From Desulfovibrio sp. A2 (GTDB lineage: Bacteria > Desulfobacterota > Desulfovibrionia > Desulfovibrionales > Desulfovibrionaceae), in the NCBI RefSeq assembly GCF_000226255.1, contig NZ_AGFG01000068.1:1-54918 (forward strand): a stretch of 54,918 nt of DNA, given 5' to 3'. Made by a program: the position numbers and the translations under genes. The notes under the pieces are model-generated. The model ran no database searches. It saw only the letters and a list, made by a program, of their open reading frames with translations, and was not told the origin of the DNA. Below are positions 57-32,920 of this stretch, in pieces; position 1 is the first letter of the stretch; the number at the start of each line of letters is the position of its first letter.

Positions 57-194
57 CCCCTATTGAAAAGTTTGGAAGGATGGAGAGGGGGGGGCGGGGG
101 AGAGGAAGGGAACTTTTGCGGCAGCCGTTAGGCGAGCTTGCGAGCCTTATGGATGGCGACCGCAGCGCGCAAAAGTTCCCTTCCTCTCCCCCGC
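57..194 (-). repeat. 3'-end hairpin element, long form, copy A (downstream of cbiO)
   Basis: Bases 94-120 and 168-194 are perfect 27-bp inverted arms around a 47-nt core (121-167), 101 bp in all. Read from cbiO, the hairpin begins 18 nt after the stop codon, and the tail motif (bases 57-75, complement of CCAAACTTTTCAATAGGGG) follows. The core is nearly identical to the reverse complement of 10522-10568 (copy B), while the arms differ in step on both sides. No T-run follows the stem, so it is not a standard intrinsic terminator. A role as mRNA 3' end, transcription barrier or REP-like repeat is inference. Confidence 0.85.
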
Positions 195-212
195 ATTCTT
201 TTTCTCTTTGTT

Positions 213-1088
213 CTACCCGTGATGATGGTGCACGTCGCCGCCGGTGTGGGTGTGCACGTGGGTGTGGGGGGTATGGGTGGCGATGCGGACGCTGCCGTCC
301 TGCACGCTGAGAAAGCTGTCGCAGGTCTGGGCCAGAAAGTCCCAGTCGTGCGAGATGATCAGGTGGGTGGGGCTGTGTGCGGCCAGGATGGCGATGAGCC
401 GGTCGCGGGTGCGCGGGTCGAGGTCGTTGGTGGGCTCGTCCAGCAGCAGGGCCTGTGGCTGCATGGCCAGCACGGCGGCCAGGGCGATCATCTTCTTTTC
501 GCCGCCGGACAGGCGATGGGTGACCCGGCTGCCGAACCCGGCAAAGCCCAGGCGCTCCAAGGTGGCCTCGGCCACGGCGCGGGCTTGTGCGGGCGATGCG
601 CCGTGGTTCAGCGGGCCGAAGGCGACATCCTCCAGCACGGTGGGGCAGAACAACTGGTCGTCGGAATTCTGGAACAGGAACCCCACCTCGCGGCGCAACG
701 GCCCGAAGTCGGCCTCGCGCGCCAAGGGCACGCCCCGGTGCAGCACCCGACCAGCCTGCGGCCGTAACAACCCCATGAGCAGATGCAGCAGGGTGGACTT
801 GCCGCTGCCGTTGTGCCCCAGAAGGCCGACGCGGCGGCCCGGCCGCAGGGCCAGCGACGCCCCGCGCAGCACGGGCGCCGCGCTGCCGGGATAGGTGAAG
901 TGGATGTCCTCCACCGCCGCCAGCGGGGGCGTGGCGTCGTCGGCATGGGGGGCCGGATGGGGGTGTGGATGCTCGTGCCCGTGCTCGTGCCCATCCGCAT
1001 GCTCGTGGTCATGCTCGTGATCATGTTCGTGGCCTGGAGCGTGGGCATCCGGGTGTCCGTGATTCGGGGGCGTGGCGGCGGTGCTCAT
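213..1088 (-). CDS. cbiO: Cobalt/nickel ECF-type ABC transporter, ATP-binding protein CbiO, histidine-rich ends
   Basis: A 291-aa ATPase that would power cobalt or nickel uptake with CbiQ and CbiM. Walker A GHNGSGKST is at residues 91-99, followed by the ABC signature LSGGEKK, Walker B LLLDEPTND and an H-loop in LIISHDWDF. The start codon overlaps the cbiQ stop (ATGA), which supports this start over a longer in-frame extension inside cbiQ. Unusual are the histidine-rich ends: 16 His within the first 48 residues, mostly in HEH/HDH pairs, and 9 His in the last 22 or so, ending HHHHG. Such tails probably bind or buffer metal (inference). Last gene of the cbiM-cbiQ-cbiO operon. Confidence 0.93.
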   Translation of the reverse strand: MSTAATPPNHGHPDAHAPGHEHDHEHDHEHADGHEHGHEHPHPHPAPHADDATPPLAAVEDIHFTYPGSAAPVLRGASLALRPGRRVGLLGHNGSGKSTLLHLLMGLLRPQAGRVLHRGVPLAREADFGPLRREVGFLFQNSDDQLFCPTVLEDVAFGPLNHGASPAQARAVAEATLERLGFAGFGSRVTHRLSGGEKKMIALAAVLAMQPQALLLDEPTNDLDPRTRDRLIAILAAHSPTHLIISHDWDFLAQTCDSFLSVQDGSVRIATHTPHTHVHTHTGGDVHHHHG

Positions 1089-1882
1089 GGCAGTTTCGCG
1101 AAGGGGTGAAGGATGTCGGCGGCCAGCAGGACGGCCGCGCACAGGATGATGGCGGCGGCCAGCAGCCGGTCGCCGGGGTGCCCGGCGGGTTCGGCCAGCA
1201 TGTGGAAGCGCCCGGCAAAGCCGCGCAGACGCATGGCCTGGGCCACGCGCTCGGCCCGGTCGAAGCTGCGCACCAGCACCATGCCCGCAAGGTTGGCGTA
1301 GGTGCGGTAGGTGTGCAGGTTGGTGCCGGGGGTGAAGCCGCGCACCTTCGCGGCGGTGCGCAGGCGGTGGTATTCCTGGGCCACCACGTGCAGTTGCCGC
1401 CAGGTGAACAGCAGCAGCAGGGCCAGTTTGTCCGGCAGGCCCAGCCCGGCCACGGCGTGGCCAACGGCGGTGACGTCGGACGTGCCCGCCAGGGCGATGA
1501 AGGCCAGCACGATGGCGTTGGACTTCAGGGTGACCAGCACGGCCAGGGCCACGCCCGCGTCTGTTGCGGCCAGGACCAGCCAGTCCGGCAGTCCGGGAAC
1601 GGGACCGATGCGCAGCAGCGGCGCGCCGGGCAGGGAAAAGGGCAGGAACAGCCACAGCAGGGCCACGAATACGTTGACGGCAGCCAGCCGCCGCAGCAGG
1701 CGGGGCAGGGGCAGGCGCGCCCAGGCGCACAGTGCCGCGCCGAGGGCCAGCGCCACGGCGGCCACGCCGGGCGTGCGCAGCAGGGCCACGCACACGGCGA
1801 AGGCCATCGCGGCCGCCAGTTTGCAGCGCGGGTCGGCCAGGTGCAGGCGCGATGCGCCCCGGCTGAAGGGTTCGTCCAGCAC
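1085..1882 (-). CDS. cbiQ: Cobalt/nickel ECF transporter transmembrane protein CbiQ
   Basis: A 265-aa membrane coupling subunit. Hydrophobic segments occupy residues about 22-55, 65-85, 95-135 and the C-terminus. The two coupling-helix motifs typical of the family are visible as KVRGF and MRLRGF; these dock onto CbiO. It begins 9 nt after the cbiM stop and overlaps cbiO by 4 bp, so the three genes are translationally linked. The family handles Co2+ or Ni2+, and the sequence does not tell which. Confidence 0.92.
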   Translation of the reverse strand: MLDEPFSRGASRLHLADPRCKLAAAMAFAVCVALLRTPGVAAVALALGAALCAWARLPLPRLLRRLAAVNVFVALLWLFLPFSLPGAPLLRIGPVPGLPDWLVLAATDAGVALAVLVTLKSNAIVLAFIALAGTSDVTAVGHAVAGLGLPDKLALLLLFTWRQLHVVAQEYHRLRTAAKVRGFTPGTNLHTYRTYANLAGMVLVRSFDRAERVAQAMRLRGFAGRFHMLAEPAGHPGDRLLAAAIILCAAVLLAADILHPFAKLP

Positions 1883-1891
1883 GCAGCGCCG

Positions 1892-2506
1892 CTAGCCGTG
1901 CGCGGTGGAGGTGAAGGCCAGCATTTCGGGCCGCACCCGCGCGATGAACGACACCACCAGCGCCGTCACCACGCCTTCCACGATCATGACCGGGATGTGC
2001 GCCAGCATCAGCGCCCGCGCGGCGGGTATGAACGCCTCGCCGGACATCCCCAGGGATACGGCGGTAAGCAGGGCGGAAGCGCCCACGGACAGGAAACCGC
2101 AGGCAAAGGCCGCGCCGCCTCGCAGGCGGGACGGGCCGGTCAGCATGGGGCGGAAGGCGTAGAAGCATAGCACCGGCGGCACGGCCATGTTGAAGGTGTT
2201 CACCCCCAGCACGGTGAGCCCGCCGAACTGAAACAGCAGGGCCTGCAACGCCAGCGCCACGAAAATGGCGGGAAAGGCGGCCCAGCCCAGCATGACGCCC
2301 AGCAAGCCGTTAAGCACCAGATGCGCGCTGGCGGGGCCGATGGGCACGTGGATGAGCGAGGCCACGAAAAAGGCGGAGGACAGGATGGCCACGGTCATCA
2401 GGCGATCGTAGTCCACCCGCTTCAGGCCCGCCGTGACGCCAAGGGCGGCTAGCGCCGCGCCCGCGCCGAGCACCGCCGGAGAAAGCACCCCTTCGGAAAT
2501 GTGCAT
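1892..2506 (-). CDS. cbiM: Cobalt/nickel ECF transporter substrate-binding membrane protein CbiM
   Basis: A 204-aa membrane protein that binds the metal. It starts MHISEGVL; in this family the N-terminal amine and His2 are metal ligands, so the N-terminus must be exact. This rules out the long in-frame upstream extension and fixes the start at 2506, with GGCGAGG as ribosome-binding site. Further conserved parts are HVPIGPASAHLVLNG and FNMAVPP. No cbiN or nikN/nikL-like small subunit is seen beside it, so this is a minimal MQO set. The hydrogenase maturation genes 33 kb away make nickel plausible, but cobalt is not excluded. Confidence 0.92.
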   Translation of the reverse strand: MHISEGVLSPAVLGAGAALAALGVTAGLKRVDYDRLMTVAILSSAFFVASLIHVPIGPASAHLVLNGLLGVMLGWAAFPAIFVALALQALLFQFGGLTVLGVNTFNMAVPPVLCFYAFRPMLTGPSRLRGGAAFACGFLSVGASALLTAVSLGMSGEAFIPAARALMLAHIPVMIVEGVVTALVVSFIARVRPEMLAFTSTAHG

Positions 2507-2769
2507 GCATGCCTCGCCTGTCTGCGCGCCCGTCGCGGCGCGCGGAAAATCCGGCGTCACGGGCGTGCCGAAAGGGGTAGCAGATGGCACCCGGAGCGTC
2601 AACGTGTTACGAATCCGCAAGGCGTGCCGGGGGGGCGTTGCCGTCGAACTCTCCGGGTCTTCTGGTGTTTGCCTGGGATGTAACGGGGCCGGGCCGACTG
2701 CGGGAACAGGATGCCGCAGGCTGGGTGCGGTCGGTGCACCCTTATCAGCCCCCTGCCTGGCCGTTGCAA
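2507..2769 (-). other. Leader region upstream of cbiM, no riboswitch recognised
   Basis: The gap between cbiM and the transporter terminator. I looked for a cobalamin riboswitch and for a NikR operator. No B12 box in the right order was found. A single GTGTTAC half-site lies at 2604-2610 without its partner at the expected 13-14 nt. No confident promoter is visible. Confidence 0.4.
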
Positions 2770-2808
2770 CGAAAACCGCCCCCGCACGCGCGTGGCATGC
2801 GGGGGCGG
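2770..2808 (-). terminator. Intrinsic terminator of the NhaD-like transporter gene
   Basis: Read on the minus strand, CCGCCCCCGCA (2808-2798) pairs perfectly with TGCGGGGGCGG (2786-2776) and is followed directly by TTTTCG. It lies 28 nt after the transporter stop codon and upstream of cbiM, separating the two transcription units. Confidence 0.85.
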
Positions 2809-2835
2809 CGTAAGCTGCAATGCGGTGCGCGGGCG

Positions 2836-4269
2836 CTACATGAAGAAGACCAGCGTCACCAGGACGAACGACGGCACCAGGATGCCGCACGACCAGGCCA
2901 TGTAGCCGAAGAAGCTGGGCATCTTCACGCCCTGTTCTTCGGCGATGGAACGCACCATGAAGTTGGGCGCGTTGCCGATGTAGGTGTTGGCGCCCATGAA
3001 CACGGCACCGGCGGAAATGGCCAGCAGCGTCTGGGCCATGTCGTGCATCAGGTGCATGGCGTCGCCGCCTGCGGTGTTGAAGAACACCAGGTAGGTGGGC
3101 GCGTTGTCCAGGAAGCTGGACAGCAGGCCGGTCAGCCAGAAGTACATGACGTTCACCGGCTGGCCGTCGTGGGTCACCATCTGGATCACCGAGCGCAGCG
3201 CGCCGTTCTCGCCCGCCTTCAGGATGGCGATGGCCGGAATCATGCTGACGAAGATGCCCGCGAACAGCTTGGCCACTTCGGCGATGGGGCCCCAGCTGAA
3301 ATCGTTCTTGATGCGCGATTCGGGGTCGGTCAGCTTCAGGGACAGCCCGGCGATGACCAGCAGGATGATGTCGCGCACGATGTTCTGGAGTTCCACCGGC
3401 ACGTGGTACACCACGAATTCCACGCCCGGCTTCCAGAAGCCGCTCATGAGCACCGCGGCAACCACGCCGCCCAGCAGCAGCAGGTTCACGCTGCCTTCCA
3501 GGCCCAGCTTTTCACCGCCGCCTTGCTGCGGGGGCACGGGGCGGCCTTCCTTGCCGAACAGCACGGTGTCCAGCGCGAAGAACACGGCCAGCAGCAGCGC
3601 CGAAACCAGCAGCATGGGAGCGAACATGTGGACGGTGGTCCAGAAGAACGAGACGCCCTTGAGGAAGCCGAGGAACAGCGGCGGGTCGCCCAGCGGCGTC
3701 AGCGAACCGCCGATGTTGGCCACCAGAAAGATGAAGAACACCACCGAATGCACCTTGTACTTGCGGTGGGCGTTGGCGCGCAGCAGCGGGCGGATCAGCA
3801 GCATGGCCGCACCGGTGGTGCCCATCCAGCTTGCCAGCACGGTGCCGATGGCCAGCAGCAGGGTGTTGACCATGGGCGTGCCCACCAGCGAACCGGTCAG
3901 GCGCACGCCCCCCGCTACGGTGAACAGCGCGAACAGCAGGATGATGAAGGGGATGTATTCCAGCAGCAGGGTGTGCAGCACTTCGTACAGCGCCAGCGAA
4001 GCGCCGAACTGCAAGGCGAAGGGCACAAGGAAGGCCAGGCCCCAGAACGCCGAGACCTTGCCGAAGTGATGGTGCCAGAAGTGTGGCGCAAGCAGGGGCA
4101 GGATGGCGATGGACAGCAGCATGCAGGCGAACGGCACCGCCCACAGGCCGCCGAGCAGGGCACCGTCGAGGTGGGGCGCACCCGCGCCAGCGGCGAACGC
4201 CATGCCCGGGAGCATGGCCATGACGGCGGCCACAAAGGCCATTGCCGCCTTCTGGATCTGAATGTTCAC
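2836..4269 (-). CDS. NhaD/CitM-type sodium:proton antiporter or ion permease
   Basis: A 477-aa polytopic membrane protein of the ion-transporter superfamily that includes NhaD Na+/H+ antiporters and citrate/arsenite permeases. A cleavable signal-like segment (PGMAFA, residues about 21-26) precedes at least ten hydrophobic helices. The paired re-entrant signatures are visible as IGGSLTPLGDPPLFLGF and FLDNAPTYLVF. The start is GTG at 4269 with AAGGAG a few bases upstream. It is a single-gene unit with its own terminator. The ion specificity cannot be read from the sequence; NhaD-like is the best guess. Confidence 0.8.
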   Translation of the reverse strand: MNIQIQKAAMAFVAAVMAMLPGMAFAAGAGAPHLDGALLGGLWAVPFACMLLSIAILPLLAPHFWHHHFGKVSAFWGLAFLVPFALQFGASLALYEVLHTLLLEYIPFIILLFALFTVAGGVRLTGSLVGTPMVNTLLLAIGTVLASWMGTTGAAMLLIRPLLRANAHRKYKVHSVVFFIFLVANIGGSLTPLGDPPLFLGFLKGVSFFWTTVHMFAPMLLVSALLLAVFFALDTVLFGKEGRPVPPQQGGGEKLGLEGSVNLLLLGGVVAAVLMSGFWKPGVEFVVYHVPVELQNIVRDIILLVIAGLSLKLTDPESRIKNDFSWGPIAEVAKLFAGIFVSMIPAIAILKAGENGALRSVIQMVTHDGQPVNVMYFWLTGLLSSFLDNAPTYLVFFNTAGGDAMHLMHDMAQTLLAISAGAVFMGANTYIGNAPNFMVRSIAEEQGVKMPSFFGYMAWSCGILVPSFVLVTLVFFM

Positions 4270-4709
4270 TTGGGAGCCTCCTTGGCGTCTCGTTGTATGG
4301 AGTCGGTCCGGCCGGTGGCACGGCGACAGCGTTGTCGCTGACCGGTATGATTCATGAATCTGATGCGGCCCGGCGCGGGAATGCGACTGCTGTGTCGTTC
4401 AGGAGGAATGGGACGCCGCGCGCCAGAGCCTGTAGTAACGGGAGTGCGCCATCTTATCAATAAGGGCTTGTTGCGGCGCGTTGCAGAGGGGCATGCTGCG
4501 AACCCGGTTGGCACACCCCGGATGGATAAGTGTGGCAGTGGAATCGCCAGCGCGAGCAACGCTCCGCTCCGGTTATGGAACAACATGATTTGATTGGTCA
4601 AGCGGGAAGGTGACATTTTGTCGAAACGGGGATACACAGAAGCCCCGCGCGCAGGCACCCACGGCGTTTTTGCCCCCTTAACCCCCGAACAAACCTTACC
4701 GGCGGCAGC
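4270..4709. other. Divergent intergenic region between the NhaD-like transporter and trmH
   Basis: 440 bp without a credible gene. It should hold promoters for both directions, but no strong -35/-10 pair stands out. A palindrome TTGATTGGTCAA at 4590-4601 resembles CRP/FNR-family half-sites (TTGA-N4-TCAA) about 110 bp before trmH. With one site only, a regulatory assignment is speculative. Confidence 0.4.
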
Positions 4710-5300
4710 ATGGCACGACAGATAACCCCCCGGCGCATGGAACGCATCCGCCGCGTTCTCGGCTGGCGGCAGAAGGATCTGACCCTTGTGCTGGCCAACA
4801 TCCACGACCCGCACAACGTTTCGGCCATCTACCGCAGCTGCGACGCCTTCGGCGTGGCCCAGGTGCACCTGTACTACACCGACACCGCCTTTCCCGTGCT
4901 GGGCCGCAAGTCGTCGGCCTCGGCCCGCAAGTGGGTGGACACGGTGCGCCATTCCGACGCCCAGAGCCTGATGCGCACCCTGAAGGAAGGCGGCCACCGC
5001 GTGCTGGCCACCAGCTGCACCCCGGCGGCGCGCCCCCTTGGCGAGTACGACATGACCCAGCCCACCGCCATCATCATGGGCAACGAGCATTCCGGCGTGG
5101 CCCCGGAACTGACCGCGCTGGTGGACGGCGAAGTATACATCCCCATGTACGGAATGATTCAGAGTTTCAACGTGTCGGTGGCGGCGGCGGTGATCTTGTC
5201 CGAGGCCTCGCGCCAGCGCGTGCTGGCGGGCATGTACGACCGGCCCTCCTGGCCCGAAGAGGAACTGGAGGCCCGCATCGCGGCCTGGGTGGAGAAGTAG
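4710..5300 (+). CDS. trmH: tRNA (guanosine-2'-O)-methyltransferase TrmH (SpoU family)
   Basis: A 196-aa SPOUT methyltransferase. TrmH transfers a methyl group from S-adenosylmethionine to the ribose of G18 in the tRNA D-loop. Motif 1 is ANIHDPHNVSAIYRSCDAFG (residues about 29-48), motif 2 is IIMGNEHSGV and motif 3 is YGMIQSFNVSVAAAVILSEA, which includes the deep-knot SAM site. The overall match to Escherichia coli TrmH is clear, including the AGMY near the end. The upstream Shine-Dalgarno is weak. A plain hairpin terminator follows, so it looks monocistronic. Confidence 0.88.
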   Translation: MARQITPRRMERIRRVLGWRQKDLTLVLANIHDPHNVSAIYRSCDAFGVAQVHLYYTDTAFPVLGRKSSASARKWVDTVRHSDAQSLMRTLKEGGHRVLATSCTPAARPLGEYDMTQPTAIIMGNEHSGVAPELTALVDGEVYIPMYGMIQSFNVSVAAAVILSEASRQRVLAGMYDRPSWPEEELEARIAAWVEK

Positions 5301-5328
5301 CGGGCGAGAAAACGTTGTCCCGCAAACG

Positions 5329-5375
5329 CGACAGCGGCGCATCCGGATGGTTCCGGGTGCGCCGCTGTCGTGTTT
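5329..5375 (+). terminator. Hairpin terminator after trmH
   Basis: CGACAGCGGCGCA (5329-5341) pairs perfectly with TGCGCCGCTGTCG (5358-5370), and an inner TCCGG/CCGG adds to the stem. It is followed by TGTTT. It lies between the convergent trmH and glycosyltransferase genes, 29 nt past the trmH stop. Confidence 0.75.
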
Positions 5376-5479
5376 GGCGGGTGTGGCGTGGGCAATGGCG
5401 GCATGGGTTTTCACCTGCCCGGCGCGGCAGTGGCCGTTGCCGGGCAAGCTGTGCGCGTCATTCGCCCGCGCCGTCCGTG

Positions 5480-6754
5480 CTATTCGTCGGGTCCATCGGA
5501 GGCGTCACCTTCCAGCGGCAGGCCAAGGTCGGCCAGCCAGCCTTCGTACAGCGCGCCCACCTCGCGCTCGTTCGCCCGCCGTGCCCAGCGGGCCAGCCCG
5601 CGCGCCTTGCGCACCAGCCGCTCCGGGTCCTCCAGCAGGCCGGTGACGTGCTCTATCTTGCGGGCCGCCTGCCCGGCCAGGTCGGGGTTGCCCGCCTGCG
5701 CCGCCGTTAGGGCCAAGCGGCGGTACCCCGGCAGGGTGGGGAAGAAATAGCAGTGCAGCAGCCGCACGCCGGACGCTTCCAGATATCTGCCGTGGCCCTC
5801 CAGAAACGCGGCCAGCAGTTCGTAGCCGGGCTGCCACAGCGGGTCGGCCTGCAGGGCCTGCCAGCAGCGGCCGGGCTCGAAGTCGGCGTGTTCCGCCATC
5901 AGTTCCGCCGTGCGCGCGGCAGGCAGGGTCAGGTAGGTTTCCAGCCACGGGGTCAGGGCCATCTCGAAGCCGTCGCGCCGGGCCAGCTTGTGCAGGTCCG
6001 GCCCGAAGCAGCCGGAGCAGCGCCGGTTGAGCCGGGCGGCGTTGGCGGCGTCGTGGTCGCGGCGGCCGGGGGTGCGGCTTTCCAGGTGGTACACCCGGCT
6101 TTCCGCCGCGCAGGCCACCTTCAGTCCCCGTTCGCGGATGCGCCAGCACAGTTCCAGATCTTCGCTGCCGTTCAGATACCCTTCATGGAACCCGCCGCAG
6201 TCCGCGAACAGGCCGCGCCCCATGAGCAGGGCCGCGCCGGTGATGGCCTGCAACGGACGCCGCGCGGCCACCGCCGGGTGCGCGGCGGGAAAGTTGGCGT
6301 ACAGGTGCTCGGTGGACAGTGACGGCGTGAAGGCGATGCCGCAGTGCTGCACCCTGTCCGTATCCGGGTAGAGCAGCAGCGGCCCCACGGCCCCCAGCCG
6401 GGCGTCGTCGTCCAGCGCCCGCAGCAGCGGCGGCAGCCAGCCGGGCGTGGCCAGGGTGTCGTTGTTCAGGAACAGCAGCCTGGCCGCGCGGGCCTGCGCC
6501 GCGCCAAGATTGCTGGCCACGGCGAAGCCCTTGTTTTCCGGCAGGCGCAGCGCGCGGAACATGTCGCCGAACAGGGGGCGGCCCAGCGGTTCCAGATCGC
6601 TGGCCGTGGCGTCGGTGGAGCCGTTGTCCACCACGATGACTTCCAGCAGGCCGCCGGGCGTGTGCGCGTGCAGGCTTTCCAGACAGCCGCGCGTGAGGTC
6701 CCAGAGGTTCCAGGCGGGGATGATGACGGAGACGAGGGGTGCTTTGGCGGTCAT
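5480..6754 (-). CDS. Glycosyltransferase family 2 with C-terminal helical extension
   Basis: A 424-aa protein that starts MTAKAPLVSVIIPAWN, the classic N-terminus of inverting GT-A glycosyltransferases. It shows VDNGSTDAT (nucleotide-sugar binding), LFLNNDTLATPGWL (the DXD position, here NND) and NGSEDLELCWRIRERG (catalytic base region), as in rhamnosyltransferase-like members. Residues about 270-424 form an Arg/Ala/Leu-rich helical region of unknown function. The start lies 62 bp after the next upstream gene, also a glycosyltransferase, so they are probably cotranscribed. The acceptor is unknown; surface polysaccharide or flagellin glycosylation are both possible. Confidence 0.82.
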   Translation of the reverse strand: MTAKAPLVSVIIPAWNLWDLTRGCLESLHAHTPGGLLEVIVVDNGSTDATASDLEPLGRPLFGDMFRALRLPENKGFAVASNLGAAQARAARLLFLNNDTLATPGWLPPLLRALDDDARLGAVGPLLLYPDTDRVQHCGIAFTPSLSTEHLYANFPAAHPAVAARRPLQAITGAALLMGRGLFADCGGFHEGYLNGSEDLELCWRIRERGLKVACAAESRVYHLESRTPGRRDHDAANAARLNRRCSGCFGPDLHKLARRDGFEMALTPWLETYLTLPAARTAELMAEHADFEPGRCWQALQADPLWQPGYELLAAFLEGHGRYLEASGVRLLHCYFFPTLPGYRRLALTAAQAGNPDLAGQAARKIEHVTGLLEDPERLVRKARGLARWARRANEREVGALYEGWLADLGLPLEGDASDGPDE

Positions 6755-6816
6755 GCGGATAGGGCTCGTGGGGGTGGGTAGCGTGTGGATGCCGGGGAAA
6801 CGGAGGCGCGGGGCGG

Positions 6817-8649
6817 TTATTCCGCGTCCGGCGGCAGCGTCGCCGCCAGCGCGGCGGCCTTGCGCAGCAGGTCCTGCCGGGCCAGCGCGGCGGACGCCTC
6901 GCGCGCCTGCCTGGCCTTGTTTGCCGGGTGCAGGTGTTCCAGCTTGATGCGGTTGCCGAAGACATGCGCGCTGCGCGCCCGGCTGGTGGCCTGGCGCAGG
7001 CTGGAATGCTGCATGTGGCGCACCCGCACCGTGCCCGCGTACCATACCGGCAGTCCGGCCAGCGTGCAGCGGATGTCCCGTTCGAGATCGTCGAACTGGC
7101 TGGGGGTGAAGCGCACGTCGAACGGCCCCACATCGCGCACCGAGGCCATGGACACCATGTGGCAGCAGCCGGAAACGGACAGGCAAGGCCGCGAATAGGC
7201 GGTGAGCAGGGTGTCGGCGCTGCCCGCCGAGTTGCCGTGGATGTGCCAGTGCTCGTCGAGGTCGGCGAAGCTGCGGGTGCCCATGTCCGGCGGCAGGGCG
7301 AAAAAATCGGCGCATTGCAGCGCGTGCGGCGGGGTGTGGTCGGTGACGGCGCAGCCGATGGCCCCCCAGCCGGGCCGGGCGTGAGCCACGGCCAGCAGGC
7401 CGTCCAGCCAGCCGGGATCCAGCAGCACGTCGTCGTCCAGGAACACGGCGTGCTCGCGCTGGCGCACTTCCGGCAAGGACAGCAGCCAGTTGCGGGCGGC
7501 GGGCGCGCCCACGTTCACCGGCAGGCGCACCACCGTGAACGGCGAGCCCCAGTCCGCCGCCATGGCCCGGAACATGTCTTCCGTGCCGTCCTGCGAGCCG
7601 TTGTCCAGCGCGAAGACCGGCGTGCCACGGAACCCCGCCGCGCGCAGCGAACGCAGGGTCTGCGCGGCCAGGTCGCGCTTGTTCCAGGTGTACAGCAGGA
7701 TGGCGGGGGCGGGCATGTCCGCAGGTGGCGCGGGCAGCGGGTGCAGCAGTTCGTGCAGGGCCAGCGTGAGGTTGGGGTGGTACGGGGCCTCGCGCCACAG
7801 GGGCAGCAGCAGGGCGGCGGCGTCCGCCGCGTGGCCCGGCCTGTTCGGCCTGTCCGAACTGAACGGCCGATCCAGCCGGGTCAGCAGTTCGGCGCGGCGT
7901 AGCGCGTACCATGGGGCAAAGGGGGATGGTTCGCCGGATGCGGCACCCCGTGCGGCCAGACCGTCCAACTGCCGTAACGCATCGCCCGTGGGCAGGCGGC
8001 GCAACGCCCATTCGGCGCGCAGCCGGTCCGCCAGAGCGGCGGGCAGCGCAAGTTCTCCGGGCAGGGCCATGGCGGCGCGCAGCAGGGTTTCCAGCGTGGC
8101 GTCATCAGGAGTCGGGGGCGTGGGAGCCGTCGTGCCGTCCCCGGTCGGGCTCACGGAATTTTCATGGCGGATGCACCATTCCATGCCGCGCGCCAGCCAG
8201 AACAGGCCGTGTGGCGGGTCGGCCAGGCGGGGCAGCACCACGTCCAGCATCACTCGCGCCGGAGCGGCCGCCGGGCCGCCGTGGGCAGTAAGGACTGCGT
8301 CCAACCCGCCGAAGTCGGCGGGCACGCGCAGCCTGTCATGCAGGCGGGCCACCAGTTCGCGCAGGGTCGGGTCGAACGCCTGCGGGGCGTCCTCCATGAT
8401 GGCGCGCAGCAGGGCGGCAAGGCGGGTGTCCAGCGGGTTGTCGCGCCAGCCCCACAGGGCCATGCCCACCCCGGCCGCCACCATGCCGGGGTCGCCCCCC
8501 GCGTTTTCGATGGCCCCGCGCGCCAGGCGGAACTGGTTGTCCGCGCCCATGGCCCCGCATTCCCACGTGGGCACGCGGTTCATGAGGGCGGACAGCAGCG
8601 CGGGGGCCTGGGCCGGGTCTGGTGCGGGGATGCCGTGCGGATGCGCCAT
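6817..8649 (-). CDS. Two-part protein: N-terminal helical region plus family-2 glycosyltransferase domain
   Basis: A 610-aa protein. Residues about 1-330 are helical and not recognised. Residues about 335-560 form a GT-A domain beginning AILLYTWNK, with FALDNGSQDGT, GAPAARNWLLSLPEVR, the DXD-like FLDDDVLLDPGWL, SVSGCCHM and GPFDVRFTPSQFDDLE. The domain is paralogous to that of the divergent gene at 8754-10478, block for block. The start MAHPHGIP at 8649 was chosen because upstream codons run into the divergent promoter space; no strong Shine-Dalgarno is visible. Probably cotranscribed with the glycosyltransferase downstream. Confidence 0.78.
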   Translation of the reverse strand: MAHPHGIPAPDPAQAPALLSALMNRVPTWECGAMGADNQFRLARGAIENAGGDPGMVAAGVGMALWGWRDNPLDTRLAALLRAIMEDAPQAFDPTLRELVARLHDRLRVPADFGGLDAVLTAHGGPAAAPARVMLDVVLPRLADPPHGLFWLARGMEWCIRHENSVSPTGDGTTAPTPPTPDDATLETLLRAAMALPGELALPAALADRLRAEWALRRLPTGDALRQLDGLAARGAASGEPSPFAPWYALRRAELLTRLDRPFSSDRPNRPGHAADAAALLLPLWREAPYHPNLTLALHELLHPLPAPPADMPAPAILLYTWNKRDLAAQTLRSLRAAGFRGTPVFALDNGSQDGTEDMFRAMAADWGSPFTVVRLPVNVGAPAARNWLLSLPEVRQREHAVFLDDDVLLDPGWLDGLLAVAHARPGWGAIGCAVTDHTPPHALQCADFFALPPDMGTRSFADLDEHWHIHGNSAGSADTLLTAYSRPCLSVSGCCHMVSMASVRDVGPFDVRFTPSQFDDLERDIRCTLAGLPVWYAGTVRVRHMQHSSLRQATSRARSAHVFGNRIKLEHLHPANKARQAREASAALARQDLLRKAAALAATLPPDAE

Positions 8650-8753
8650 GCGTGTTGCGGGGATGCGGGTTGGCGGGATACAACGCGCCGAAACGTGTGC
8701 CCGTCGCGGCGGGCGGATCGACCGATGCGGCACTGTGGGCGGTAACGCCCGGA

Positions 8754-10478
8754 ATGTCAATTGAACCCGCCGGAGCTCCCGTGACCTCTCCCGCCCTTGT
8801 ACGCCCCCGCTGGCGTTCCCTGCCCGGCAATCTCGCCGCCGCCCTGCTCAAGGGCGGGGTGGGGCAGTTGCACCTCGTCGGCATTGCCGAGATGGCCTTG
8901 GCGGCCATGAACACCCCGGAAGGCGCGGCGTATGGCGCTCCCGCGCTGTTCGCGCTGGGGGCCGACGCCCTGTGCGCCGCGTGGGAGGGCGACCTGCTGG
9001 ATGGCCGTACGGCCGGGCAACTGGCAGCGCTGCACAAGGCCCGGCCCTTCCTGCCCACGCCGGTGTTCCGGGTGGCGGAGCTGTTGTCCACCCTGGACGT
9101 GCCTCCGCCGGATGCCGAGGTGCGCCAGCTGGTGCAACTGCTCCAGCAGCGCGACGCGGACGCCACGTGCCGCCTGCTGGACCGCCAGCGCCGCGCCCAG
9201 CCGGGCAACACCTTCTGGCTGCGGCAGGCCCTGGTGGTGGGCATGACCGAGGCCCGCCACCAGTGGCTGGACGCCTGGCTGGCCGGGCTGCCTTCCGGCC
9301 TTCGGGATGGGGGGAACATTCCCGCGCCCGCGGTGTCCGCCCTGCGGGGCGACGTGGCCTTCGCGCGGGGGGACATGGCCGGTGCCGCCGCCCTGTACGC
9401 CGCCGCCAGCAAGGCCCTGCCGCTGCCCACGTGGCAGGCGCGGCACGCCGAGTGCCTGTATCGCGCGGGCGACCGGGAGGGAGCACTGGCTCTGTGGAGT
9501 GTGGCGACAGAAGCCCGGCCCTGGCAGATCAATCTTCTGCTGCGCCGCGACGACGTGGCAAAGGGCCGCGACCTGCCGGGCGATCTGCCCGCCGGGCGCG
9601 GCGCGGTGCTGTTCTACACCTGGAACAAGGCCGAATGCATCGACGAGGCGTTGGCCTCCGTGGCCGCGTCGGACCTCGGCGATGCCCGCGTGGTGGTGCT
9701 GGACAACGGCTGCACGGACGAAACCCCCGCCGTGCTGGCCCGTTGGGCGGAACGCGCACCCGGTCGTTTGGGCGAGCGGCTGCACACCGTCACCCTGCCG
9801 CTGAACATCGGCGCGCCCCCCGCCCGCAACTGGCTGTTGACTCTGCCGGAAGTGCGCGCCTGCGACTGGGTGGCCTTTCTGGACGACGACGCCACCGTGC
9901 CGCCCCACTGGTTGCGCCTGTTCGGCGCGTCCATGGCCGCGCACCCCGCCGCCAACGTCCACGGCTGCCGCGTGGTGGACTACTCGGTTCCCATGCTGCT
10001 CCAGTCCGTGGACCTGCATCTGGACCCCGGCGGCGACATGGCCGCCGCGCCCGAGAACGCCCCCGGCTACCGCCGCCGGTTTTCCGTCTCCGACCTGCAT
10101 CTGCAGGAACTGGACTTCGGCCAGTTTTCCTACCTGCGCCCGTGCGTGTCCGTCACCGGCTGCTGCCACCTGTTCCGCCGCGCCGTGTTCGACGCCGTGG
10201 GCCCCTTCGACCTGCGCTACGCCCCCAGCCAGTACGACGACCTGGAACACGACCTGCGCCGCAGCCTGCGCAACGACCTGCCCGTCTACCAGGGCCATCT
10301 GGCCGTGCGCCACATGAAGCGCACCGGCCGCGCCTCGTGGACCGACCCCGCCCAGTTCTCCAACGCCTGGGCCAACATGTACAAGCTCCAGTACCGCTAC
10401 GCCCGACCCGACTTCGATACCCTGCGCCAGCACGACCACGCCGCCCTGCTGGCCGATGTGGAGGCAAGAGGTTTTTGA
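8754..10478 (+). CDS. Two-part protein: N-terminal helical region plus family-2 glycosyltransferase domain (divergent paralogue)
   Basis: A 574-aa protein with the same architecture as the neighbour at 6817-8649. The first 280 residues are helical, with TPR-like stretches such as GDMAGAAALYAAASKALP. A GT-A domain follows: AVLFYTWNK, VLDNGCTDET, GAPPARNWLLTLPEVR, FLDDDATVPPHWL (DXD), SVTGCCHLF and GPFDLRYAPSQYDDLEHDLR. An alternative GTG start at 8781 has a better ribosome-binding site (GGAG, 5-nt spacing) and would give 565 aa; the two cannot be separated by eye. About 105 bp divide it from its divergent paralogue. Its 3' end carries hairpin element copy B. Confidence 0.78.
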   Translation: MSIEPAGAPVTSPALVRPRWRSLPGNLAAALLKGGVGQLHLVGIAEMALAAMNTPEGAAYGAPALFALGADALCAAWEGDLLDGRTAGQLAALHKARPFLPTPVFRVAELLSTLDVPPPDAEVRQLVQLLQQRDADATCRLLDRQRRAQPGNTFWLRQALVVGMTEARHQWLDAWLAGLPSGLRDGGNIPAPAVSALRGDVAFARGDMAGAAALYAAASKALPLPTWQARHAECLYRAGDREGALALWSVATEARPWQINLLLRRDDVAKGRDLPGDLPAGRGAVLFYTWNKAECIDEALASVAASDLGDARVVVLDNGCTDETPAVLARWAERAPGRLGERLHTVTLPLNIGAPPARNWLLTLPEVRACDWVAFLDDDATVPPHWLRLFGASMAAHPAANVHGCRVVDYSVPMLLQSVDLHLDPGGDMAAAPENAPGYRRRFSVSDLHLQELDFGQFSYLRPCVSVTGCCHLFRRAVFDAVGPFDLRYAPSQYDDLEHDLRRSLRNDLPVYQGHLAVRHMKRTGRASWTDPAQFSNAWANMYKLQYRYARPDFDTLRQHDHAALLADVEARGF

Positions 10479-10494
10479 GAAGAAAGAATGCGAA

Positions 10495-10630
10495 TCGGGG
10501 AGGGGAAGGAAACTTTTTGCGCTTTGCGGTCGCCATCCGTAAGGCTCGAAGACTCGCCTAACGGCTGCCGCAAAAAGTTTCCTTCCCCTCCCCGAACCCC
10601 ACCCCTTCCTTCCAAAACTTTCAATAGGGG
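10495..10630 (+). repeat. 3'-end hairpin element, long form, copy B
   Basis: Perfect 27-bp inverted arms at 10495-10521 and 10569-10595 flank a 47-nt core, 101 bp in total, exactly the dimensions of copy A. The core is the near-identical reverse complement of copy A's core, differing at about five positions around a small apical loop. The C-rich stretch and the tail CCAAAACTTTCAATAGGGG (10612-10630) follow. It begins 16 nt after the glycosyltransferase stop. Relative to the upstream gene, its orientation is the same as copy A's. Confidence 0.88.
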
Positions 10631-10730
10631 TGGAAGCAGATGGGCAGGTTGGGCACAGAGCCAAGAGGTCGTGCGTTAGTTTGCACCAATAGTTTATCCC
10701 TACAAATAAAAAATTTGCGGGGGATGGGGT

Positions 10731-10770
10731 TCGGGGAAGGGGGAGCTTTTCAAAGCTCCCCCTTCCCCGA
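10731..10770 (-). repeat. 3'-end hairpin element, short form, copy F (downstream of trmFO)
   Basis: Perfect 19-bp arms at 10731-10749 and 10752-10770 with a 2-nt loop. The outer part reads TCGGGGAAGG as in other copies; the inner part is GGGAGCTTT. It begins 21 nt after the trmFO stop on the minus strand. The stretch beyond it (10729-10709) reads CCCCATCCCCCGCAAATTTT, a diverged version of the usual tail. It faces copy B, so both convergent genes end in the same kind of element. Confidence 0.8.
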
Positions 10771-28511: not shown

Positions 28512-28849
28512 CTTCAAGCGGGCCTTCCGCCCGTTGGCGTCGTCAAGCTTTGCCTGCCATGTCGGTCGAATACGATAAGAGTATACTCCCTCATGTCAGG
28601 CTCGCTTTCCTCGCCAACGAACGGAAATCCCGCTTGAAGGCACCGCGCGCGCGGCTCGTCCTCCTTGCCGGAGAACGAAATCTCCGCAGCGTGGCGGGTG
28701 CGTGTAGTGCAGACTGAAACCGCAAGTGAGTGAGGCGTTTCAGTTCGGCCTGCCGCACCTGATGGCATGTCCCCTGTACGGGCGCGGGTGAACAGTTCCG
28801 TTGCCGCCCGCGCCGCAACCGCAACCCTTGCAGTATCCGGAGGAAATGA
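28512..28849 (+). other. Leader region upstream of ndk
   Basis: 338 bp with no credible gene. A TATACT hexamer (28582-28587) could be a -10 box, but no matching -35 is seen. ACTGAAAC (28713-28720) and GTTTCAGT (28737-28744) form an 8-bp inverted repeat with 16 nt between, about 105 nt before the ndk start, which may fold in the mRNA leader. Confidence 0.4.
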
Positions 28850-32837: not shown

Positions 32838-32920
32838 CGGGGGAAGGGGAGGAAAATTTGGAAATTTTCCTCCCCTTCCCCCGCCCCCCCCATCCCCTCC
32901 TTCAAACTTTTCAATTGGGG
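32838..32920 (+). repeat. 3'-end hairpin element, short form, copy D (downstream of sppA)
   Basis: Perfect 22-bp arms (32838-32859 and 32862-32883) with a 2-nt loop; outer part CGGGGGAAGG, inner part GGAGGAAAATTT. A C-rich stretch and the tail TCAAACTTTTCAATTGGGG (32902-32920) follow. It begins 21 nt after the sppA stop and faces copy E. Confidence 0.88.

Follow-up and report, generated by a model that had tools for sequence, protein, structure and literature searches.

Why should two hairpins in one stretch of DNA share nearly the same loop and be closed by arms that differ between them and are still perfectly paired? The question is raised by a 54,918-nt sequence from Desulfovibrio sp. A2 (contig NZ_AGFG01000068.1 of assembly GCF_000226255.1; hereafter the window). 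Hairpin 1 occupies positions 94–194 (arms 94–120/168–194) and hairpin 2 positions 10495–10595 (arms 10495–10521/10569–10595). Each consists of 27-bp perfect arms and a 47-nt loop, and the two 47-nt cores align in opposite orientation, as the initial annotation of the window had described. When copy 1 was searched against the whole genome, copy 2 was matched at E 6.5e-22, so the likeness of the two is not due to chance. A blastn search of the genome with copy 1 gave 45 matches, which have a core of ∼50 nt in common and differ in their surroundings.

The core is a dispersed unit that was gained, or cleanly lost, at single sites, and the arms in the window are two different long host stems of the same kind as two empty hairpins present there (Table 1). 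Hairpins 1 and 2 combine nearly the same loop with different, well-paired arms because the unit sits in two host hairpins. The reading favored here, at a probability of about 0.7, is that of a non-autonomous unit inserted into hairpin tips or junctions by machinery supplied in trans. The mobility of the unit is well supported; the mechanism of its movement we infer.

Filled and empty sites in related genomes

Using the flanking sequences, 32 unit-bearing sites were located in relatives and 31 of them were compared (L040 was left out, and the L014 and L018 sites had one relative each), the flanks having to be at least 55% identical over 30 nt on either side. The 118 site-by-relative comparisons gave 24 filled and 23 empty cases; 6 fell into neither class, and in 65 the flanks could not be aligned. 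An empty relative exists for 13 of the 31 sites; identity reached at least 90% on both sides in 7 of the 23 empty comparisons.

With the unit removed, L053 is identical to G100 over 44 of 44 nt, L056 agrees with G038 at the junction and differs from it twice further out, and copy 1 of the window matches G066 over 43 of 44 nt, the odd base lying in the loop. Because copy 1 without its unit matches G066, its arms exist with a 2-nt loop; the boundaries of the copy 1 unit were set by this comparison. No target duplication, a feature that the initial annotation had proposed to look for, was found in the nine empty sites inspected, to within 1 nt. In L014, near position 1500, the unit sits within the final codons of a reading frame, to which it gives a new stop (the frame ends in HIMGARGSR, versus HIMGARAKA in G038).

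These comparisons bear on whether the complete 101-bp hairpin is an inverted-repeat element whose arms are kept alike by arm-to-arm correction. The two copies with perfect 27-bp arms fit such an element, and an inverted loop at L005/G066 fits recombination between arms. G066, however, has the copy 1 arms without the core, most units lack such arms, and the arms differ between copies. This explanation has next to no chance of being correct. The earlier proposal of a small mobile element is thus upheld as to mobility and amended as to the mobile part, which is the core and not the 101-bp inverted repeat, since the arms occur without it; arm-to-arm correction is not needed for two copies that sit in two different host hairpins.

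Sites around hairpin 2 could be followed in genomes with TrmFO orthologues 95–96% identical to that of the window, namely N. oxamicus (L077), N. liaohensis (L078, a partial protein) and a metagenome-assembled genome (L076). The N. liaohensis locus carries a unit at the site orthologous to copy 2, between imperfect arms. Downstream of TrmFO, a unit sits between A and T in L076 and L077, and there is none in the window or in N. liaohensis.

The unit has a conserved fold

All 56 units of this genome are 50–57 nt long, mostly 51 or 56 nt, and 52 of them have GC at both ends (5'-GC..GC-3'). The set is what is left of 67 matches after 5 duplicates (two at L017 and three at L055) and 6 weak matches belonging to a divergent subtype were taken out. 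The unit is structured as one imperfect hairpin followed by an unpaired tail, GAC(C/A)GCANNGC. The fold contains conserved mismatches, an A or G facing A, a U facing U and two tandem G-A, and these conserved unpaired positions suggest a recognized shape.

Covariation was assessed in a 46-copy alignment, which retains 46 of 47 rows after one false regular-expression match (L021 at 881) was dropped. Paired cells make up 92.5%, against at most 35.8% with one side slid. Two-sided changes occupy 51 cells, compared with 13.7 in shuffles and at most 21 in slid alignments, and are found in 8 of the 17 pairs of the fold. Selection on a folded structure, which had been proposed for the hairpins, is accordingly supported for the core, where the changes between copies compensate each other. 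A second alignment, of 61 distinct rows, has 24 G-T cells to 4 A-C cells, so the strand as written is probably the one that folds.

The units fall into two subtypes with different junctions. Subtype GACCGCA is preceded by T in 33/39 units and followed by G in 37/39; subtype GACAGCA is preceded by A in 12/14 and followed by T or C in 10/14. Three of the 56 units belong to neither.

Covariation, conserved unpaired positions and an occurrence across genera would also be expected of a structured RNA module at hairpin tips, selected for a host function such as protein or ligand binding or termination control, and spread by duplication without being mobile. Such a module does not account for empty orthologous sites, self-nesting, insertion in a reading frame or the presence of both orientations at one site (L005 versus L255), and the Rfam scan of the window gave no match at the gathering score. 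At six unit-bearing loci, Rfam gave three weak matches at E ≤ 1, all below the gathering score and off the units. We regard a non-mobile module as very improbable; in these genomes, a hairpin with a 47-nt loop of this sort is likelier to be an insertion than a dedicated regulator.

Targets of the unit

Target classes were assigned to the 56 units by a text rule. Sixteen units lie at terminator-like tips, 23 at two sites of a ∼100-nt repeat (15 and 8, respectively), three in the sequence GGGGGA^TGGGG and three nested in other units (L036, L040 and L004). The remaining 11 are elsewhere, among them a terminator-like tip that has extra bases (L022 at 1758). A stem of at least 8 pairs, counted with G-T allowed and within 6 nt of the unit, flanks 16/56 units, whereas 500 permutations of the flanks averaged 4.3 such units and never exceeded 11. 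The arms are mismatched at several terminator-like tips (L008, L021, L023 and L078). Perfect pairing of the arms therefore characterizes both copies in the window and is not general, as only these 16 units are stemmed and some stems are mismatched. Since the stem is kept, the effect of the unit on the host hairpin would probably be small.

Two sites show the unit inverted in a relative at the same position of a terminator-like hairpin. The arms are nearly the same in one (L005 versus L255) and different in the other (L010 versus L244); recombination between arms may occur, as the inverted loop of L005/L255 would illustrate. At the sites of L022 and L002, G038 has a different, longer unit nested in the apical loop of the core (L224 and L237).

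The ∼100-nt repeat, of the type GTTGGC-AAGGAAAAC-..-GGGAGTGTACTC-..-GCCAAC, is itself a dispersed family that forms hairpins, and it is the principal carrier of the units. The genome contains 21 uninterrupted copies, including one in the window; in interrupted repeats, the matches break near positions 41, 64 or 83 of 102.

Copy number and distribution

At most 150 candidates were scored per genome, and far fewer in the surveys of the family and class, so all copy counts are lower bounds. The model has at least 120 matches at E ≤ 0.01 in this Nitratidesulfovibrio genome. For G038, a closed genome, all 150 candidates that were scored match, giving at least 150 units. Further copies in relatives, which the initial annotation had suggested seeking with a covariance model and whose absence would have refuted its reading, are thus abundant. 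Matches at E ≤ 1e-3 were found in 54 of 119 genomes of the family. A draw of 297 genomes from the class yielded 95 with matches at E ≤ 1e-6, in 17 of 53 genera; the matching genomes listed from this draw, in which the share of genomes from outside the family is not stated, are all in Desulfovibrionaceae. Distant blastn searches of plasmid and phage collections at E ≤ 0.01 gave no match.

In other genera, the same kind of fold sits inside other repeats. Loci can be aligned with one another over pieces of up to ∼270 nt (30 loci from 7 genomes, of which 21 loci from 5 genomes are shown), and the tail reads GACAGC in four of the five genomes shown and GAGAGC in the fifth. A longer autonomous version was considered for these genera; only larger repeats were seen, at loci that were not searched for genes. 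Several contigs of G056 end inside the larger unit-bearing repeat. G063, from another genus, has 127 matches at E ≤ 1e-5, many of equal score, in a repeat aligned over ∼190–225 nt (L328, L335, L342 and L349), which looks like a recent burst.

How the unit may move

In the mechanism proposed, machinery supplied in trans would recognize the folded single strand of the unit and join it, without target duplication, into the exposed tips or junctions of other hairpins. Single-stranded DNA would be a somewhat likelier substrate than RNA, a slight preference that follows from the lack of a common reverse transcriptase and a small bias of orientation with replication. Reverse transcriptase (PF00078) was not found in this genome and occurs in two of eight genomes of the genus. 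Y1 transposase (Y1_Tnp) is likewise absent from this genome and occurs in two of the eight, both times partial and once with a stop. In G038, 58–61 of 94 single-strand clusters are oriented with replication (p 0.005–0.03 by choice of boundary; 9 mixed clusters excluded), a weak bias that may be confounded by gene orientation. The GC skew of G038, sampled at 20 points of 12 kb, flips sign near 0.55 and 2.7 Mb, although the record starts with a DnaA frame; the origin may lie away from dnaA.

The same mobile unit could instead have moved via RNA, with a transcribed hairpin joined into the loops of transcripts or copied into target DNA. Target hairpins at gene ends would be transcribed, the 24-to-4 excess of G-T cells is in keeping with a folded RNA, and an RNA route has reportedly been suggested for the small dispersed repeats of cyanobacteria. 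DNA also tolerates G-T mismatches, however, and the distribution of PF00078 just described offers such a route no reverse transcriptase in this genome. The replication-linked orientation in G038 is not predicted by it either, a weak objection given that the orientation may follow that of genes. Movement via RNA is therefore considered unlikely, if by no means negligible.

Several points weigh against insertion by machinery in trans. The flanks could not be aligned in 65 of the 118 comparisons, no empty orthologue of copy 2 was found, and the filled and empty sites may reflect either gain or loss of the unit. In five of the nine empty sites inspected (L010, L013, L014, L020 and L022), the relative is 1 nt longer than the unit-less sequence of this genome; the unit edge may be off by one there, a base may have been lost or the loop may have drifted. 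Not every copy in the ∼100-nt repeat counts as independent, because a filled repeat can spread whole and take its unit along. Paired sites change no slower between relatives (18/504 versus 18/447, counted over 18 comparisons of equal length with no filter on the flanks; 11 others, unequal in length, were omitted). Of the four two-sided pair changes between relatives, one is in L010/G066 and three come from L008/G085, a case that has the look of two different units occupying one site. Lastly, no moving enzyme was found, Y1 transposase and reverse transcriptase being the only enzyme families searched.

A more specific form of the trans-acting mechanism can be put forward tentatively. The unit may be a loop-homing element of ∼51 nt, in which the folded unit is the transposing substrate, the 3' tail (GACCGCA/GACAGCA) goes with the junction (T^G/A^Y), and an enzyme that Desulfovibrionaceae have in common joins it into exposed single-stranded tips. 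Loop homing, if true, would amount to transposition that needs neither terminal repeats nor target duplication nor a linked gene. It is an open question by what route bacterial genomes fill with repeats that have room for neither a gene nor a pair of transposon ends. The present family is abundant, with many comparable filled and empty sites and two subtypes of different junction preference. No candidate common to the genomes emerged from the two enzyme classes searched, and the question is testable in cultivated sulfate reducers.

Relation to known repeats

The closest known kind appears to be the small dispersed repeats (SDR) of Nostoc and its relatives, of which the unit would be a variant. 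These are said to have been described by Elhai and colleagues in 2008 as folded elements of 21–27 nt, reportedly nested in other repeats and in themselves and without a linked gene. Both kinds are non-coding, far below 100 nt, have a covarying fold, are nested in repeats and in themselves and lack a linked gene; the unit shows these SDR-like traits in its length (50–57 nt in 56/56), compensatory changes, embedding in repeats and in itself, and recent mobility, with filled and empty sites differing between species of one genus. It differs from SDR in size (50–57 nt here), fold, host (Desulfovibrionaceae) and a preference for long terminator-like tips, and probably in sequence. A literature search with poor coverage of subscription papers found no description of the unit or of such repeats in Desulfovibrio.

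Miniature inverted-repeat transposable elements (MITEs) are short, non-autonomous and of high copy number, like the unit. In contrast to MITEs, the unit itself has only GC..GC (52/56) by way of terminal inverted repeats, the long arms belonging to the host hairpin, and the nine empty sites show no target-site duplication apart from the 1-nt ambiguity. An integron attC site, prompted by the string GTTAGGC, was tried as a candidate and dropped, as the order of boxes is opposite to that of attC.

Repetitive extragenic palindromic (REP) sequences and REPINs resemble the unit in being small palindromic extragenic repeats of high copy number (PMC3733652, PMC3116915). REP stems are given there as 5–13 bp, with a GTAG- or CGTC-type tag beside a simple stem (PMC3733652). 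Compared with that description, the pairing of the unit reaches beyond 5–13-bp stems, and the GCAG columns before its inner stem belong to a covarying helix. A family of REPs or REPINs mobilized by a RAYT (Y1) transposase would explain a small, extragenic, palindromic unit of high copy number, and the GCAG ahead of the inner stem recalls a degenerate GTAG tag. The supposed tag positions nevertheless pair and covary (columns 5–6 with 45–46), and the unit's own genome has no Y1_Tnp, the two occurrences among the eight genomes of the genus being partial. This origin is hardly credible. Insertion sequences that target REP palindromes (PMC1525189) also enter palindromic DNA; they have a transposase gene, whereas the unit is a 51-nt non-coding sequence.

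The two copies and their surroundings in the window

Searched with covariance model R1, the window yields two good copies and no more; the match that ranks third scores 12.8 bits (E 0.33). Their coordinates are collected in Table 1 with those of the host arms and of sites without a unit.

Table 1. Positions of units, host arms and sites without a unit in the window.
Feature	Position	Strand	Remarks
Mobile unit, copy 1	118..168	+	51 nt, GC..GC, subtype GACCGCA; R1 match 117–169, 77.1 bits
Left arm of host hairpin 1	94..117		Pairs with 171–194; G066 L180 has this arm, closed by a 2-nt loop
Right arm of host hairpin 1	171..194		169–170 is GC between unit and arm
Mobile unit, copy 2	10521..10571	-	51 nt, GC..GC, subtype GACCGCA; R1 match 10520–10572, 77.9 bits
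Arm of host hairpin 2	10495..10518		Pairs with 10572–10595
Arm of host hairpin 2	10572..10595		Pairs with 10495–10518
Empty junction A^T (GGGGGA^TGGGG, plus-strand reading)	10724..10725	-	Unit present in L076 and L077; none here or in L078
Uninvaded hairpin	10731..10770		19-bp stem, 2-nt loop, downstream of TrmFO; terminator-like on the plus strand
Uninterrupted copy of the ∼100-nt repeat (GGCAAGGAA type)	28523..28622	-	Repeat carries units elsewhere
Second uninvaded hairpin	32838..32883		22-bp stem, 2-nt loop

A terminator pattern scan of the window, which asks for a G+C-rich stem with a T run right behind it, gave 7 sites, compared with 6.6 in shuffles; the hairpin at 10731–10770 is the only one of these hairpins listed, and the loop limit of the scan is below the loops of the 101-bp hairpins.

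Both 101-bp hairpins follow a stop codon at the annotated distance of 16–18 nt. The gene upstream of hairpin 1 is a minus-strand frame for a CbiO-like ABC ATPase that stops at 213, 18 nt from the hairpin edge at 194; it matches PF00005 above the cut-off, and its best NCBIfam match is cbiO, under the curated cut-off of that family. Upstream of hairpin 2, a plus-strand frame for a family-2 glycosyltransferase stops at 10478, 16 nt before the hairpin begins at 10495, and TrmFO faces the hairpin. The core is antisense to the upstream gene at both hairpins.

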